Below, in pieces: positions 10,195 through 21,460 of a stretch of DNA of 64,000 bases. Position 1 is the first letter of the stretch, and each line of letters opens with the position of its first letter. Source of the stretch: Vanrija pseudolonga (Eukaryota > Basidiomycota > Tremellomycetes > Trichosporonales > Trichosporonaceae); contig NC_085855.1 of NCBI RefSeq assembly GCF_020906515.1, positions 806,001 through 870,000 of the forward strand, read 5' to 3'. Both the position numbers and the translations under genes were made by a program. Below the pieces are notes generated by a model. That model worked only from the letters and a program-made list of their open reading frames with translations, was not told where the DNA came from and ran no database searches.

Positions 10195-11278
10195 AAGAGC
10201 GAAACGACGTTAAAAGGCACCTCAGCAGTTGTGACTTGTATGTAATAGCGCCAATGCATTGTCTCGGTATTGTGAACGAGTGGGAGATCGAGGACGAACG
10301 CGAAAGAGGACAACGTTGAACGAGGACGACGATTTGAAGGAGCGCCACACTCGAGCTCAGTCTATTCTCACGTAATTACAGGCAGGCACTAATAACTAGT
10401 TTGAAACGGGATCAAAATGTCAACAAGAGGCGGAAGCAAAATAACACGTGTTGGTGGTGCCCCGCAATTGCCTTCTCAGCCAGGCCCACCCACGAAATGA
10501 TTGCAGGACGCAGCAAGCTCTTATCTTCCCCGTCTTATCTTCCTCGTCCTCTGCGGCATGCAGAATGTCCCCAGGCGCCATGGGGCACCCACTCACGATG
10601 GGGCAAGTACAGAGATCTACAGGAACAGCTGCGATCCTCCAGCGGGGCCACCAACTCGGCTTGGACGGACAGAGGAGCCGCCAACTGCCCGGAGTGTGTG
10701 CATGTGGGTGGTGTGTGCGCGCGACACACACAAGAGGAGACCGACCCTACCCCCCGGAACCCGTCGCCTGACCCCTCGGGACCGGATTCTTGCGGACTCG
10801 AACCGCCGACCTGTGCCGTGTGGAGCACAGGATTCGACACCCGCTTGGCTAGCGGGTGCGATGTTGAGAGGCGGGGTTCCTTCGATATAGGGGACCGCAC
10901 CTACCACACCCGCTGACATGACACTGAACGCACTCATTTCACCCCCTTACTGTTGGGCTGCTGGGACCACTCGTTCGCTCGCCCACCTCACCTTGGCGGC
11001 CGTCGTTTATCGGGTTTATAAATACCTACTCACTCGCAGGAAGCTCCCCGGTTTATTCTTGTGGCCTGTTGCCCACCGCACCATAAAAATAGAGGTCTCG
11101 GAGATCTGATGAGATTAACGTGCCGAGAGTCAGCTTCATTCTTATCTGATTTCAGTTGAAGAATGCTAAGAATGGACAGAATCTGGAGAAATCCTCGTAC
11201 CACGCCTCCTCGTGCCAAGAAACAACTTCGCATTTAACAATCTACCCATACTACTACTACTAAACTGCTTCTCTTCTC
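10195..11278. other. Intergenic region between malate synthase and MFS permease (3' ends face each other)
   Basis: The 1.1-kb stretch lies between convergent genes. It contains a tRNA-like segment near 10787-10862 (listed separately) and no convincing protein gene. A CTACTACTACT run lies just beyond the MFS stop codon. Confidence 0.4.
10787..10862 (-). other. tRNA-like segment with A-box- and B-box-like motifs
   Basis: On the minus strand TAGCCAAGCGGG resembles a Pol III A box and, 35 nt on, GGTTCGAGTCC matches the B box. Between them CCTGTG/CACAGG could form an anticodon-arm-like hairpin with a 10-nt loop. The 5' and 3' acceptor strands do not pair and no T-run terminator follows, so this is probably a decayed tRNA or a coincidence, not a working gene. 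Confidence 0.25.
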
Positions 11279-16305: not shown

Positions 16306-16557
16306 ATGACACAACCACCCAAAGAGTCCTGGTGGCAGAAGCTGCGGCGCGGCTCGGCGCCCCCAGTCGACCCGGCCAGCGTCAACGAGCTCGTCGCGCT
16401 CGGCTTTCCCTCTGACGCCGTCGTAGCCGCGCTGAAGAAGAGGAACGGCGACCTCGAGATGGCCAAGCACCAGCTCTACCACGACAAGGGCAACCACCGC
16501 GAGCCCGAAGACAACCCCGGGTGCAAGGTCTGCGTCGAGATGGACCTTGCGGCATAG
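16306..16557 (+). CDS. Small UBA-like/CxxC family protein A (83 aa to first stop)
   Basis: The frame begins MTQPPKESWWQKLRRGS and contains a UBA-type three-helix pattern, VNELVALGFPSDAVVAALK...NGDLEMAKHQL (residues about 26-58), with the conserved GF loop. It is followed by HDKGNH and, 10 residues later, CKVC. UBA domains bind ubiquitin; binding here is inference. The N-terminal SWW-KLR-GS-P block is shared with protein B, 1.2 kb downstream. Translation stops at a TAG (16555-16557), but the same frame continues without a stop for 81 codons (next entry). This is the first of six related genes in 5.2 kb. Confidence 0.65.
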   Translation: MTQPPKESWWQKLRRGSAPPVDPASVNELVALGFPSDAVVAALKKRNGDLEMAKHQLYHDKGNHREPEDNPGCKVCVEMDLAA

Positions 16558-16803
16558 TACAAGGCCCAACAGGAGTCGGCCGACAGGCTGCGCAAGGCCG
16601 ACCAGAAGGCGCAAGAGGCCGAGCGCGAGCGCGCCAAGATGCGCAACGCGGTCGACTACGCCAAGTACCAGGACAACCGCGGCGCGAGCGCCTATCTGCC
16701 TCCTCAGGACCGATACAACCGTCGGAAGGTCGTCGGCATCCAGAGCGAGTCAGAATTCGCGGCGGCAGCCAACAGTGGGCTGCATAGAAAGTACGGCAGC
16801 TAG
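16558..16803 (+). other. In-frame extension of protein A beyond its TAG
   Basis: Directly after the TAG the frame stays open for 81 codons to a TAG at 16801. It encodes a charged coiled-coil-like segment (QQESADRLRKADQKAQEAER) and then a Tyr/Arg-containing tail (LPPQDRYNRRKVV). Codons keep the C/G-ending bias of real genes. There is no start codon placed to make this a separate gene of sensible size. Protein B has the same design (UBA-like, CxxC, coiled coil), so the extension is most likely part of the ancestral protein, reached by readthrough or RNA editing, or newly cut off by a nonsense mutation. Confidence 0.55.
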
Positions 16804-17501
16804 AGATGGCTGCAGGTTCGATAGGTCTGGGTGTTGTACAGTACGCACCGATGTTATCATGTACTGTTGGGTGGCGGAGGATTGATCGGCGCACGGTCTA
16901 TCTCCATTATGCTTACAGGGGAGCCCTGATTGCCCGGGCGCTTTGGCACCGGCTTCGCTTCGCTTCTGTCCTATCGCGCCGCGCTCAGTTCGTACTTGCA
17001 GCATAGTCGACTGCCGTTCCAGGCCAACGAAGCGCTCAGCAAAGGCGCTCGGATGCTTGCTGACCTTCTCGGCGTCGGCAACAAGTGATTGGAGTTCCGA
17101 CGGCGCGTGGGAGACAGGTCCGCCCCGTCACGCCCCTTCAAACTCGTCCAAAGCCGGCCCCAGCGTCATCGCCATGCACCTCGGCGCTCGGCTAGGTCAC
17201 AGCCACAGTAGCACCGGCGACGGCCGTCGGAGGACGTTGCGGATGCACCCGATGACGCAGAGGGCGTTAGCCGTCGTTGCCGAGGAGGTGGCGGTGTGGT
17301 GCCTGGAGCCATGAAACACAGCTGGTGGGTAGTCAACTGACAGTCCTAAACGTCATACAGAGTGGCCACGATAGTGATGCCATTGGAGTTACAAGTGAGG
17401 AGCGATGCCAAGCCAGTCATCGGAGTACCCAGGATCTAACTCTGACACCGAGCCGTCAAACGCACTATCAACGGACACCACCCCCAACACCCAGACCAAC
17501 A
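16804..17501. other. Spacer between family genes A and B
   Basis: About 700 bp with no supported gene. It presumably holds the 3' flank of gene A and the promoter of gene B. The leader just before gene B is rich in CACC/ACCC, as in gene A. Confidence 0.35.
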
Positions 17502-17702
17502 ATGACACAACTACCCGTGCAGTCGTGGTGGCGAAAGCTTCGCAACGGCTCGTCGCCCCGCGCAGACTGGGACAAGGTCGACGCCCTCGTCGGCATGGGC
17601 TTCCACCCCGACAAAGCGGTCAAGGCGCTCAAGATATCCAACGGCGACGTCCAGCGCGCCACCGACCAGATGCTGCACGACCAGGGCCACTTCAACGCGT
17701 AG
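17502..17702 (+). CDS. Small UBA-like family protein B (66 aa to first stop)
   Basis: The frame begins MTQLPVQSWWRKLRNGSSP and is closely related to protein A. It has a very good UBA consensus: VDALVGMGFHPDKAVKALK...NGDVQRATDQML. HDQGH follows as in protein A, but a TAG at 17700-17702 intervenes before the CxxC. In the same frame the expected GCPIC lies 10 codons past the TAG. The gene reads in the same direction as A and C. As annotated to the TAG it is a bare UBA-like domain. Confidence 0.6.
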   Translation: MTQLPVQSWWRKLRNGSSPRADWDKVDALVGMGFHPDKAVKALKISNGDVQRATDQMLHDQGHFNA

Positions 17703-18140
17703 CAGACACCCACAGATGGCTGTCCGATCTGCAGCGAGATCTACGTCAAGGAGCAGAGACGGATCGAACGCCAGATCCTTGCAAAGCAGCGCCTCGCCGA
17801 ACATGAGCAGAAAGTCATCGAAGAGGCCCGACTGAAGGAACAGCGCAAGCAAGAGGCCAAGGAAGCCAGGGATCAGTACCTAGAAGCCAGGGCACAGTAC
17901 CTGCGACACCAACGCGAACACCCCCACTGCTGCTGTGGTCACCACGGGCCAGGGGGTCCCACTCCCGGACACAGCGACTCGTTCCACGAGTCCATGCACA
18001 ACTCGGCCCACGAGAACGCACACAACTTTGCACTCAGCTCTACCGCCGCCGCCTCCGCCGCCGCTATGGCTGCCGTCGCCGACGCTTCGCCGCCGTCGTT
18101 TAGCGCTCCCAGCAACACCTTCCAGCCGGCTCCAGCATAA
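17703..18140 (+). other. In-frame extension of protein B beyond its TAG
   Basis: After the TAG the frame is open for 145 codons to TAA at 18138. It supplies the family CPIC motif, then a long Glu/Arg/Gln coiled coil (IERQILAKQRLAEHEQK and onwards, about 60 residues). A Cys/His cluster HPHCCCGHH follows, then a His-rich stretch and an Ala/Ser/Pro tail. The order of parts matches the post-stop extension of protein A. High GC at third positions argues against random open frame. Confidence 0.55.
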
Positions 18141-18322
18141 CGCCCCCTAAACTACCTCAACCATTGTATTCTCACATGTGTATTCGTACCCAATGTATCA
18201 TTGACCAAGCTGTCAGCAGCAAGGCTTGGAGGTGGTCGTCTGGCTCCGTAAACAGTCTGTCGATCCGCATGGCCACCGCTTGCTAGGCTTAAACGAAAGC
18301 TTCCGAAGAAATAAACATCCCA
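18141..18322. other. Short spacer between gene B and the tRNA pair
   Basis: About 180 bp of unassigned sequence between the TAA of the protein B extension and tRNA-Val. Confidence 0.3.
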
Positions 18323-18408
18323 GGCCACTTAGCTCAGCTGGTTAGAGCGCATGCTTAACACTTGAAGCGTTACGCATGAGGTCGGCGGTTCGATCCCGCC
18401 AGAGGTCA
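18323..18408 (+). tRNA. tRNA-Val(AAC) with 12-nt intron
   Basis: A box TAGCTCAGCTGG and B box GGTTCGATCCC are canonical. The anticodon stem CATGC/GCATG pairs after removal of a 12-nt intron (18361-18372) that begins right after the base 3' of the anticodon, the normal eukaryotic position. The loop TTAACAC gives anticodon AAC. The T arm GGCGG/CCGCC is perfect. The acceptor stem has one A-A mismatch (position 5-68) and one G-T pair. No T-run lies between this gene and the tRNA-Glu that starts 18 nt later, so the two may be transcribed together. Confidence 0.88.
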
Positions 18409-18426
18409 CGGACTAATCTCGGTCTA

Positions 18427-18514
18427 TCTTCGCTAGTATATCGGTTAGTATAACCGCCTCTCATTAGAGAGATTCAAATCGCGGTAGAGCAGGGTTCGAC
18501 TCCCTGGCGGAGAA
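18427..18514 (+). tRNA. tRNA-Glu(CTC) with 16-nt intron
   Basis: The acceptor stem TCTTCGC/GCGGAGA pairs fully with one G-T. The A-box region is TAGTATATCGG and the B box is GGTTCGACTCC. The anticodon stem ACCGC/GCGGT forms once the 16-nt intron 18464-18479 is removed, leaving the loop CTCTCAC with anticodon CTC. A T5 run at 18532-18536 and a T4 at about 18544 are probable Pol III terminators. Splicing would need the SEN endonuclease, whose subunit Sen2 is encoded at 58.4-60.1 kb. Confidence 0.9.
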
Positions 18515-18531
18515 AAGCACAAGTGATTAGC

Positions 18532-18547
18532 TTTTTGATTAGCTTTT
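18532..18547 (+). terminator. Pol III terminator after the tRNA pair
   Basis: Two T-runs (TTTTT and TTTT) begin about 18 nt after the tRNA-Glu 3' end. No T-run separates the two tRNAs. Confidence 0.6.
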
Positions 18548-19026
18548 CGCCTGACTCTTGTTCTAATCGGGTCCGGACCCGGGTCTCACTCAACTCCAAG
18601 TTATACTCCCGCACGCTGGTTGATACCTCGATCTTCATGATGCTCTTGTCGCCACACACTCACATACAGAGACCTACAATGCTTATCCCGCGATCCGGCG
18701 AGCCCCCTCATGGTGTTGCTATTCTCCTTGACAGCACACCTTGACAGCACACAGCTTGGAACGAAGGCGCGGCCGCAAGAACCTTTGCCATGTAAAGCCT
18801 CAACATGTATCGCTCCCCACTTTCACCCAGCCGACGTTGCCGAAGCTTGATGTCATGCAGTGTCCATCCAAGCAAGGCACAACACTGCGTCCCGCTGCCA
18901 TCACAACATCGCTTATGTGCGGGTACTGCTGTGTTACCGCCAGACTGAGTAACATGCACGATACATATGGTCAGCTGGTGTTGCAGTACTGAACAGGTCG
19001 CCACCCGCAACACACACATACACGCC
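18548..19026. other. Spacer upstream of family gene C
   Basis: About 480 bp without a supported gene; it must hold the promoter of the + strand family gene starting at 19027. Confidence 0.3.
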
Positions 19027-19458
19027 ATGCCACTCGCGCGCACAAACTCCCACACTACGACGCTGTACAGCGCCACATCGAACACCTCGACGCTGGTGGC
19101 ACGGAGTCCATCCCCCAGCCCCGCTGCAGCCAAGGACACGGACGCTGCCATCTCCAAATCCAAGGGCCTCGGCGCGAGGTTCAAGAGCAAGCTCAACGGG
19201 TACAACAACGCCTCCGTCGTCACGCTCGTGAGCGAGGGTTTTGACGAGCCAGATGTCCGTCAAGCGCTCAAGGCGGCGAGGGGCTATGAGAAGGACGCGC
19301 GCAGTTGGCTCAAGCACACTCGCGACCACGTACCGACAAAGACGTACCACGCCGACTGCATCGTCTGCCATGCGGCGCTCAACAAGGGACCGGACTGGGT
19401 CAACCGTCATGGCTTCCTCGCGCCACCGGCGGTGTTCAGCGGGATGAGTGCCAGATAG
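19027..19458 (+). CDS. UBA-like/CxxC family protein C (143 aa)
   Basis: The intronless frame starts MPLARTNSHTTTLYSATS, a Ser/Thr-rich leader shared with proteins D, E and F. After a Pro/Ala linker it has the UBA-like core VVTLVSEGFDEPDVRQALKAA (residues about 62-95), with the GF loop kept. The motif HTRDH follows, then 10 residues and CIVC. The tail is about 22 residues. It converges on gene D with 85 bp between stops. The Ser/Thr-rich leader is not a signal peptide. Function is unknown; the UBA-like fold suggests, but does not prove, ubiquitin binding. Confidence 0.7.
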   Translation: MPLARTNSHTTTLYSATSNTSTLVARSPSPSPAAAKDTDAAISKSKGLGARFKSKLNGYNNASVVTLVSEGFDEPDVRQALKAARGYEKDARSWLKHTRDHVPTKTYHADCIVCHAALNKGPDWVNRHGFLAPPAVFSGMSAR

Positions 19459-19543
19459 CCGCTGCTCGCCACAACACCTCGAACCACTAGAGATACATGT
19501 AGCAATATAATGTTCCCATCGGGATGTACAACCTTCCAACCTC

Positions 19544-20011
19544 CTACCCGCGCCGCTGCTCGGGGGACGTAGGCAGCCCGCTGTGCCGCTCGAGGGACAT
19601 GCGCTCAAATCCGGGCGGCAGAGCAGACAAGGGCCTGCCGTAGTTGATAGATTCGACCGTTGTCGTCGCGTGTGGCTGGCGAGAAAACTCGCAGGCGGGG
19701 CAATTGGGGTCGAGGCGCGCCTTGTGGTCGCGCAGGTGGGTCAGTCCGAAGCGCGCGCGCTCCTCGTCGTTGTTCAGGCGGCCGAGGGCCCGCTTTGCGA
19801 GCGCACGGTCAAAGCCCTCAGCTACGAGCCGCTCAAGCGCGGGGTTCGGCGGGCTGATCTTGGCCTTGAGCTTGTCCGCCAGACTTGGGCGCCGGCCGTC
19901 GCCCCGCGCCTGCACTTCCGGCGCGGCGTCGCGCGCGGGCACGATGGTCGACGTGTCGGAGAAGACACTGAAGAGCGTGTCCGTGTTGGAGGTGGTGCGC
20001 TCGAGTGACAT
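19544..20011 (-). CDS. UBA-like/CxxC family protein D (155 aa)
   Basis: The frame starts MSLERTTSNTDTLFSVFS, the leader typical of the - strand trio. The UBA-like core is ALERLVAEGFDRALAKRALGRL (about residues 68-100), followed by LRDH, a 9-residue gap and CPAC. The C-terminal tail is longer (about 45 residues) and repeats the word MSLER inside it (FERMSLERHSG). A TATA-like GATAAATAC lies about 40 bp upstream on the minus strand. No intron is needed. Confidence 0.7.
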   Translation of the reverse strand: MSLERTTSNTDTLFSVFSDTSTIVPARDAAPEVQARGDGRRPSLADKLKAKISPPNPALERLVAEGFDRALAKRALGRLNNDEERARFGLTHLRDHKARLDPNCPACEFSRQPHATTTVESINYGRPLSALPPGFERMSLERHSGLPTSPEQRRG

Positions 20012-20218
20012 GGTGATATGTGGGGTGCGGATGACGCTGGGATCCGCACGGTATTTATCAGTCACTCTTGAAGTGGTGCCGAGCCGAGCTGTCTCAAACG
20101 AGCAGTGCCTGGGCTGATTCAAGCCACCACGACGATACCCGCACCACACGCCTCATGTCAACAGCAGCTCGCATCGCATAATACAACGTCGACATTTATA
20201 CAGACAGCATGCTAGCTG

Positions 20219-20656
20219 CTAGGCCCCGCCGGTGCCACCACCAATCATGATCCCATCCAAGGCGCCCATGAACCTCCCCTTCTTCTTAGGCTTGTAACCA
20301 CACAGCGTGCACTGCTCGTCCGGCGCGCCGAGGTGATCCCGGCCGTGGGTGAGGACGAGGCGCGCCTTGGTCATGTCGCCCTTGGACGCGTGGAGCGTCG
20401 AGAGGACCTGCCCCTGCTGGAAGCCGGCTGCCACCAGCTCGTCAATCTTGGCTTGGGTGACGCCCTTCCCGAGCTTCGGGGCCTCGAGTGACCGTCTCGT
20501 GTCGGCTGATGTATCGTGCACTGGTGGCCGGTCGCCAGTTGCCTCGTGCAGAGGTCGCCGGTCGGCCGGTTGCCCATGCGCGGGAACGATGGTCGACGTG
20601 CGCGACGTCGTGCTGTAGAGCGTTGTGGTGTTAGAGGGCGTGCGTTCGAGTGACAT
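20219..20656 (-). CDS. UBA-like/CxxC family protein E (145 aa)
   Basis: The frame starts MSLERTPSNTTTLYSTTS, nearly identical over 18 residues to proteins C, D and F. After a linker rich in His, Pro and Asp comes the core IDELVAAGFQQGQVLSTLHAS. HGRDH and CTLC follow, separated by 9 residues. The tail is basic (KPKKKGR) and ends in a Gly-rich stretch. The spacing and strand fit a tandem duplication with D and F. Confidence 0.7.
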   Translation of the reverse strand: MSLERTPSNTTTLYSTTSRTSTIVPAHGQPADRRPLHEATGDRPPVHDTSADTRRSLEAPKLGKGVTQAKIDELVAAGFQQGQVLSTLHASKGDMTKARLVLTHGRDHLGAPDEQCTLCGYKPKKKGRFMGALDGIMIGGGTGGA

Positions 20657-21079
20657 TGTGTTGGTACTGGTGATGCGTTGTATCAAAGCTGAGGCCATGC
20701 GTGCGGCTTATGTTGCATGAGGTTGAAGCTTAGCCGCTCTTGGCACCCCGGATGATGTTGGAGTAGCGGTGCAGCTGGTCACGCGGTGGTTCCTAAGCTC
20801 GCTCGGCATATGTACAGGCGTCGTGCCAAGCCGTCGTCATCGTCCTCGGCGCCGTCAACCGCGCTGCATCATCCACAGGCACGAGGAGGCGGTGAGCATG
20901 TCCGGTTGCATCGGCTGCGTCGGGACGTGCAGGACGTGGGTGGCGTCGACGCAATGGTGGAGCTGAAGCTTAGGGTGGGCACCTCTGCTGGCCCCAGCCG
21001 CAAGTGGCCACCAGCTTATGGTCTGCATTATAGTGAGGATGAATACAACAGTATAGACACGACTCTGGCTGCGTAGCGC
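20657..21079. other. Spacer with a possible decayed family fragment
   Basis: This 423-bp stretch holds the promoter side of gene E. At about 20878-20895 a 16-bp block on the minus strand is identical to the part of gene F encoding the helix before its RDH motif. No open frame surrounds it, so it may be a fragment of a lost paralogue. Confidence 0.3.
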
Positions 21080-21460
21080 TCATCCGTACGCCATGCCGGT
21101 CAACGACATCGTCGTCGTGCCCTTCTGGTTGGCCTTGCGGAGGTTCTTGACGCCGCCGACGCGGCAGATGAAGCACCCTTGATCGGGCGTCGTGGTGTGG
21201 TCGCGTTCGTGCACGAGGAGGCGGTGCGAGTAGTCCACGTCGCCATGGGAGTACTTGAGGGCGTTGCGGACCGCGTCCTCGCCGAACCCCTCGGCGACGA
21301 GCGTGTCGACATCGGTCTGGAGGGGGATGCCGAGCTTGTTGTTGAGCTTGCGTTTGAAGAAGCCTGGCGGCTTGGTTGATGGCCCCGGAGCCACCGTGGT
21401 CGTGTTGGAGACGACCGAGGCCAGGGTGCCAGTGTTGGAGGGTGCGCGTTCAAGTGACAT
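21080..21460 (-). CDS. UBA-like/CxxC family protein F (126 aa)
   Basis: The frame starts MSLERAPSNTGTLASVVS. A short basic linker (FFKRKLNNKLG) leads to the core VDTLVAEGFGEDAVRNALKYS...GDVDYSHRLL (about residues 50-84), then HERDH and CFIC 10 residues on. The tail is short. A TATAAA at 21504-21509 lies 44 bp upstream. It is the last member; beyond it the divergent neighbour is the uL18 ribosomal protein gene. Confidence 0.7.
   Translation of the reverse strand: MSLERAPSNTGTLASVVSNTTTVAPGPSTKPPGFFKRKLNNKLGIPLQTDVDTLVAEGFGEDAVRNALKYSHGDVDYSHRLLVHERDHTTTPDQGCFICRVGGVKNLRKANQKGTTTMSLTGMAYG

Follow-up and report, generated by a model that had tools for sequence, protein, structure and literature searches.

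The window analyzed here, a stretch of 64,000 nucleotides from the genome of Vanrija pseudolonga (assembly of 24.9 Mb in 9 contigs; Vanrija is a genus within Trichosporonales), carries at positions 16306-21460 a cluster of six small genes, A to F, three on the + strand followed by three on the - strand. The six are related, and profiles and predicted folds support a UBA-type fold, to which a motif of two histidines and two cysteines is joined directly. We consider it fairly probable that their products are UBA-zinc-knuckle adaptors, two of which (A and B) were recently truncated; the family, the module, the fold prediction, the in-frame stops and the uninterrupted relatives are observed, and from them we infer the zinc, the ubiquitin binding, the adaptor role and the loss of the cut ends.

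All six frames carry a UBA-type block with a GF loop. The leader MSLER starts D, E and F, while C starts with MPLAR and has the common Ser/Thr leader, and A and B have in common the motif MTQ-P--SWW-KLR-GS; in these points and in the layout of the cluster the frames agree with what a sequence-only reading of the window had described. Against the Pfam UBA model (PF00627, cut-off 22.4 bits), A (34.2 bits) and B (31.2 bits) scored above the cut-off, D (20.0 bits) and F (20.7 bits) just below it (both reached it in a six-frame search), and C was weak at 15.1 bits; the Pfam scan of A-F returned no UBA match in E. Family-wide, 22 of 28 sequences had a UBA match at E <=1, and the family profile matched solved UBA domains, with NUB1 the best (1.1e-14). 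AlphaFold2 predictions, which cover F and A (the latter modelled read through its stop, the stop taken as Trp), gave three UBA helices in both proteins; the structure-match lists for the two models were taken up by the UBA part, so matches to the His-Cys motif and to the stalk beyond it are not represented. The UBA relation proposed earlier is thus supported, by profile search and by the fold predicted for F and A.

The family extends well beyond the cluster, to at least 29 loci in the genome: six in the cluster, five on contig C2, one on C3, one on C4, three on C5, ten on C6 and three more on C7. These were found via F, A, B, four other members and Pfam UBA as queries, followed by hidden Markov model scans of the fetched regions, and their number is a lower bound; a weak match at C3:2113057 was dropped after reading, and a match at C1:3550779 was left outside the family list. 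Family members lie close together, with 13 neighboring pairs within 10 kb as compared with a random mean of 0.33 (maximum 4 in 5000 draws). A second, larger cluster was seen on C6 (C6:1979001-2039000), with nine members within 56 kb, some of them in tandem and one, C6_1994, free of CxxC in its frame. The family of six proposed earlier is thus indeed expanded, but the six are only a part of it. A short aromatic-basic segment precedes the UBA domain in 19 of the 29 loci (by a loose pattern, with no control).

A literature search, with most subscription journals outside its reach, found no description of the family, and in the available part of the main texts of PMC12820176 and PMC7026411 neither 'UBA' nor 'ubiquitin' occurs. 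The suggestion that the family is undescribed therefore holds for the literature covered, but UniRef labels several members 'UBA domain-containing protein'. In three protein searches, every match was either the cluster's own, from a named Vanrija, or a 'lgn' protein; such searches need shared five-letter words, and wider relatives may escape them. On this evidence the family is real, apparently unnamed, and has so far been seen only in Vanrija and close relatives.

Directly after the UBA domain stands H-x2-4-H, a loop and C-x2-C (hereafter HHCC). The motif was present in 25 of 27 members scanned, whereas 2000 shuffles gave it 0.16 times on average and never more than 3 times, with B included only across its stop and C6_2003 only via a His inside helix 3. 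The two members free of it were C6_1994 (no CxxC in frame) and C6_2034 (a CRIC farther on, beyond the pattern limit); C7_2362 and C7_2363, loci found later, have it by eye. The His-Cys loop varies from 4 to 19 residues across members by pattern. In the six genes two His are found in each (H-x3-H in B-F, H-x4-H in A), and the second His is 7 to 10 residues from the first Cys (A and F counted by hand). The sequence-only reading had described an (H/R)DH or HDxGH motif with a CxxC 9-10 residues on in all six: the motif indeed lies far above chance and the CxxC is as read in A and C-F, but the spacing is 7-10, two His occur throughout, and B has its CxxC only past its stop.

HHCC also sets the family apart from the other UBA proteins sampled in the genome. 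Of 26 Pfam UBA matches (E <=0.1), 16 have HHCC after the UBA domain and are members of this one family of mostly short proteins, nine were other UBA proteins, and one was C6_1994. By eye, HHCC followed none of the nine; four of these frames end soon after the UBA domain (a few to a dozen residues on), so only five other UBA proteins could have shown it. This sample was also taken because the family profile had contained the HHCC motif.

One zinc ion is most likely bound by the four HHCC side chains. At the level of sequence, the mini metal site proposed earlier is supported, in the form of a compact two-His, two-Cys site adjoining the UBA domain. Since CxxC by itself is also a redox motif, the residues might instead be structural or redox-active (e.g., in disulfide or thiol exchange) and bind no metal, a reading we hold to be rather unlikely because the paired H-x2-4-H and C-x2-C, kept across very variable loops, fit metal ligation better than redox chemistry. 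As a separate observation, three members (C3_4037, C6_1980 and C6_1981) have a seeming second His-Cys stretch near the C-terminus (e.g., ending DGCTIC, NGCDQC and DDCDVC), which looks like HHCC repeated without a UBA domain and gave weak second profile matches in two of the three.

Each of the genes C to F is a single frame and intact. A and B had likewise been taken for complete small genes, which they are not, as each frame goes on past one in-frame TAG. Frame A runs for 83 codons to its TAG and then for 81 more to a terminal TAG at 16803, and frame B for 66 codons to its TAG and 145 more to a TAA, with exactly one internal stop in each; the CxxC of B (CPIC) lies past the stop. In a close relative both orthologs are uninterrupted (A = P0005, 165 residues; B = P0004, 214 residues; both 'lgn' proteins) and have a lysine opposite the stop. 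The B ortholog of V. albida (P0007, Q8F55_008968) also has lysine at that position; its start is annotated within the UBA domain. Neither frame has a frameshift against the relatives. Given the lysine and the uninterrupted frames in the relatives, the two stops look recent and restricted to V. pseudolonga, or to the strain studied. A would keep the whole UBA-HHCC module and lose the stalk, while B would lose the CxxC together with the stalk.

Similarity to the close relative continues past the stops: identity was 77/83 before and 65/81 after the stop in A, and 50/66 before and 103/140 after in B, with 127/155, 127/142 and 109/126 in the intact neighbors D, E and F (gaps set aside). Codon scores trained on 13 other family members were 0.35 per codon before and 0.29 after the stop in A (the other five frames negative), and 0.29 before and 0.04 after in B, the last being weak, although no other of the six frames scored higher. 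When sequences were drawn from a Markov model of the intergenic DNA nearby, those of 82, 146 and 228 codons were stop-free in 299, 46 and 6 of 4000 cases respectively; openness past the stops is therefore moderate evidence on its own, and the relatives' proteins are the stronger.

Such frames might be taken as leaky, with A and B made mostly as short protein (UBA-HHCC or UBA alone) and some full-length product with the stalk. The single internal stop per frame, a continuation that is still the best coding of six frames and past-stop similarity about that of intact neighbors all fit this reading, and CAG ACA after B's stop fits the yeast readthrough consensus CAR-NBA. On the other hand, the context of A (TAC AAG) does not fit the consensus, RNA structure at the stops is not in excess (z 0.03 and -0.60), TAG is not reassigned, and the coding signal past B's stop is weak. 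Moreover, the hallmark of programmed readthrough is a stop conserved between relatives with coding after it: coding is present here, but in the relatives found the stop is not conserved, lysine standing in its place. We thus regard leaky stops as unlikely.

Several other ways around the stops were tried and rejected. Reassignment of TAG is ruled out because A, C, D and E all end with it, and the tRNA beside B (18322-18409), considered as a suppressor, reads by hand as Val(AAC), with no anticodon for TAG. A search for general in-frame stop use with a major facilitator superfamily (MFS) query gave internal TGA or TAA in four of ten matches and TAG in none, a result in keeping with introns and of little weight. 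Inspection of B by eye showed no plausible intron around the stop. For A, the NCBI protein (P0006, LOC62_07G009175, 155 residues) is without ten codons, exactly 16528-16557; this 30-nt GT...TAG stretch has an unusual 5' end and no CTRAY branch-point-like site by eye, and its residues are retained in the close relative, so that the 'intron' is probably an annotation artefact. The case illustrates that leaving out part of a conserved motif can mask a stop codon in a public gene model, and other automatic models may conceal stops likewise.

That the NCBI model of A already bends around the stop, and that a single assembly was available for this analysis, would suit an explanation of the two TAGs as assembly errors. 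This seems most improbable, as there are two separate substitution-type differences and both frames are otherwise open and can be aligned with those of the relatives.

A closer contender, to which we give nearly but not quite an even chance, is that A and B became pseudogenes recently and have no function at all in this strain. Two premature stops in neighboring sister genes, both absent from the close relative, speak for it; half of the motif best conserved in the family is lost from B, and A is less conserved past its stop than before it. However, neither frame has a further internal stop or a frameshift against the relatives, and the truncated A product retains a complete UBA-HHCC core. The pseudogene reading overlaps with recent truncation of adaptors, the reading we prefer, under which the short products may or may not work.

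Recent truncation stands against an older background. In V. albida the orthologs of F, E and B carry the locus tags 008964, 008965 and 008968, which suggests a matching cluster there, and the close relative has orthologs of A, B, D, E and F, with P0005 and P0004 probably on one contig of this Vanrija. In a tree (69 columns, 42 rows; 14 of 39 inner branches open), A grouped with B (95/96), and C, D, E and F grouped with C5_2648, C5_2649 and C2_4350 (90/89), while the orthologs found sat beside their V. pseudolonga counterparts. By these comparisons A, B, D, E and F arose through duplications older than the split from the close relative. The orthologs in the two species argue against recent birth and death, and the rapid turnover around a tRNA pair that had been proposed for the cluster is thus not supported. 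Counting the other way, no ortholog of A, C or D turned up in V. albida, and none of C in the close relative, in word-limited searches that are not proof of absence. The clearly recent changes in the cluster are the two stops in A and B.

A further locus may link the module to ubiquitin ligation. The gene at C7:2248382-2250472 (- strand) encodes a UBA domain, HDSH...CAIC, a long coiled-coil-like stretch (our own reading; only weak Pfam matches) and a C3HC4 RING (50.7 bits), which was reached after one intron had been removed by hand; from its domains it is a probable ubiquitin ligase. Its score against the core profile was no better than that of ordinary UBA domains, and its link to the family therefore rests on HHCC and a tree place flagged for long branches. 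This RING protein (within C7:2248001-2252000) is a candidate founder or partner of the small proteins, in which the Pfam scan (A and B to their stops, and C-F, at E <=10) found no RING.

We favor, on the whole, a working model in which these proteins act as adaptors. The third UBA helix would end in H-x2-4-H and, after a short loop, C-x2-C would open the next segment, so that one zinc ion on the four side chains could staple the UBA domain to the part that follows, which in full-length A and B is a long charged stalk and in C-F a short variable tail. The UBA domain would be the likely binding head for ubiquitin or a ubiquitin-like partner, and the leader or aromatic-basic segment together with the tail may give each copy its specificity; the RING-bearing relative would point to work around ubiquitin ligases. 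With their in-frame stops, A would now lack its stalk, and B its CxxC and stalk. The UBA loop differs among the copies. Ubiquitin-binding UBA domains usually have an M/L-G-F/Y loop, which is found in 13 of the 29 loci (UBA loop picked by hand), including A (LGF) and B (MGF); the loop is EGF in C, D and F and AGF in E, so that C-F may bind ubiquitin weakly or bind another partner.

Ubiquitin-reading proteins in yeasts are usually few and old. A bolder reading, which we offer as speculation and think very unlikely, is that UBA-HHCC is a new kind of metal-stapled reader, with about 28 RING-less heads, some on coiled-coil-like stalks, forming a set of detachable receptors that dock on or compete with the RING protein as a variable ubiquitin ligase (E3) system in one yeast genus; on this view the docking stalks of A and B were lost together, since neither is of use once its partner is missing. 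If the module does bind ubiquitin and zinc, the family would provide a compact reader amenable to testing, together with naturally occurring variants, one of them linked to a RING, in which the multiplication of ubiquitin adaptors could be studied.

Table 1. Features of the six-gene cluster (positions in the window)
Feature	Position	Strand	Remarks
Gene A, ATG to in-frame TAG (16555-16557)	16306..16557	+	SWWxKLR motif, UBA, HHCC module; 83 residues; LOC62_07G009175 at NCBI
HHCC module of A (H59, H64, C73, C76)	16480..16533	+	
30-nt GT...TAG stretch left out of the NCBI protein of A	16528..16557	+	Contains second Cys of CxxC and the stop
Frame A continuation past TAG, 81 codons and terminal TAG	16558..16803	+	Predicted long stalk helix
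Gene B, ATG to in-frame TAG (17700-17702)	17502..17702	+	UBA and H-x3-H, without CxxC; 66 residues
Frame B continuation past TAG, 145 codons and TAA	17703..18140	+	CPIC, charged stretch, His-rich tail
tRNA gene, by hand Val(AAC), 12-nt intron	18322..18409	+	
tRNA-Glu(CTC), 16-nt intron	18427..18514	+	ARAGORN
Gene C	19027..19458	+	MPLAR Ser/Thr leader, UBA (EGF loop), HTRDH...CIVC; 143 residues
Gene D	19544..20011	-	MSLER leader, UBA (EGF loop), HLRDH...CPAC; 155 residues
Gene E	20219..20656	-	MSLER leader, UBA-like (AGF loop), HGRDH...CTLC; 145 residues
Gene F	21080..21460	-	MSLER leader, basic GFFKRKL segment, UBA (EGF loop), HERDH...CFIC; 126 residues

The setting of the cluster is ordinary: on its left are genes for malate synthase and a sugar transporter, and on its right is one for a ribosomal protein that has an L18 C-terminal domain. 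The cluster encloses two tRNA-like genes, as the sequence-only reading had noted. For the first (18323-18409 in ARAGORN) the tool gives Leu(taa) or Asn(att), where we read Val(AAC) by hand; with bacterial settings ARAGORN detected only this one of the pair. With long introns allowed, it also called a tRNA-Asp with a 350-nt intron at 10782-11225 (- strand), most likely a false call.

Among known systems, UBA/TS-N proteins (NUB1, Cbl-b, Ube2K, Usp5, Ddi1 and Mud1) have, by profile and predicted structure, the same three-helix fold and GF loop; C-F differ from usual UBA domains in having no M/L in the loop, and the family as a whole differs by its HHCC from the nine other UBA matches of the genome, four of whose frames stop early. 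The HHCC of integrases, an N-terminal zinc domain, likewise places H-x3-H before C-x2-C on a small helical unit, but here the spacer is shorter (4-19 residues) and a UBA domain lies ahead; the likeness is one of pattern only, and the Pfam scan of A-F gave no integrase match. UBZ fingers, if the zinc reading holds, would be alike in tying a small two-Cys, two-His zinc site to ubiquitin reading, whereas here the order is reversed, with the His pair first, and the site comes after a separate UBA fold. UBA and RING are joined in ligases of the Cbl-b type as they are, with HHCC, in the protein at C7:2248382, while A-F are without RING by Pfam; and in Cbl-b the UBA domain is C-terminal and the RING central, whereas in the Vanrija protein UBA-HHCC is N-terminal.

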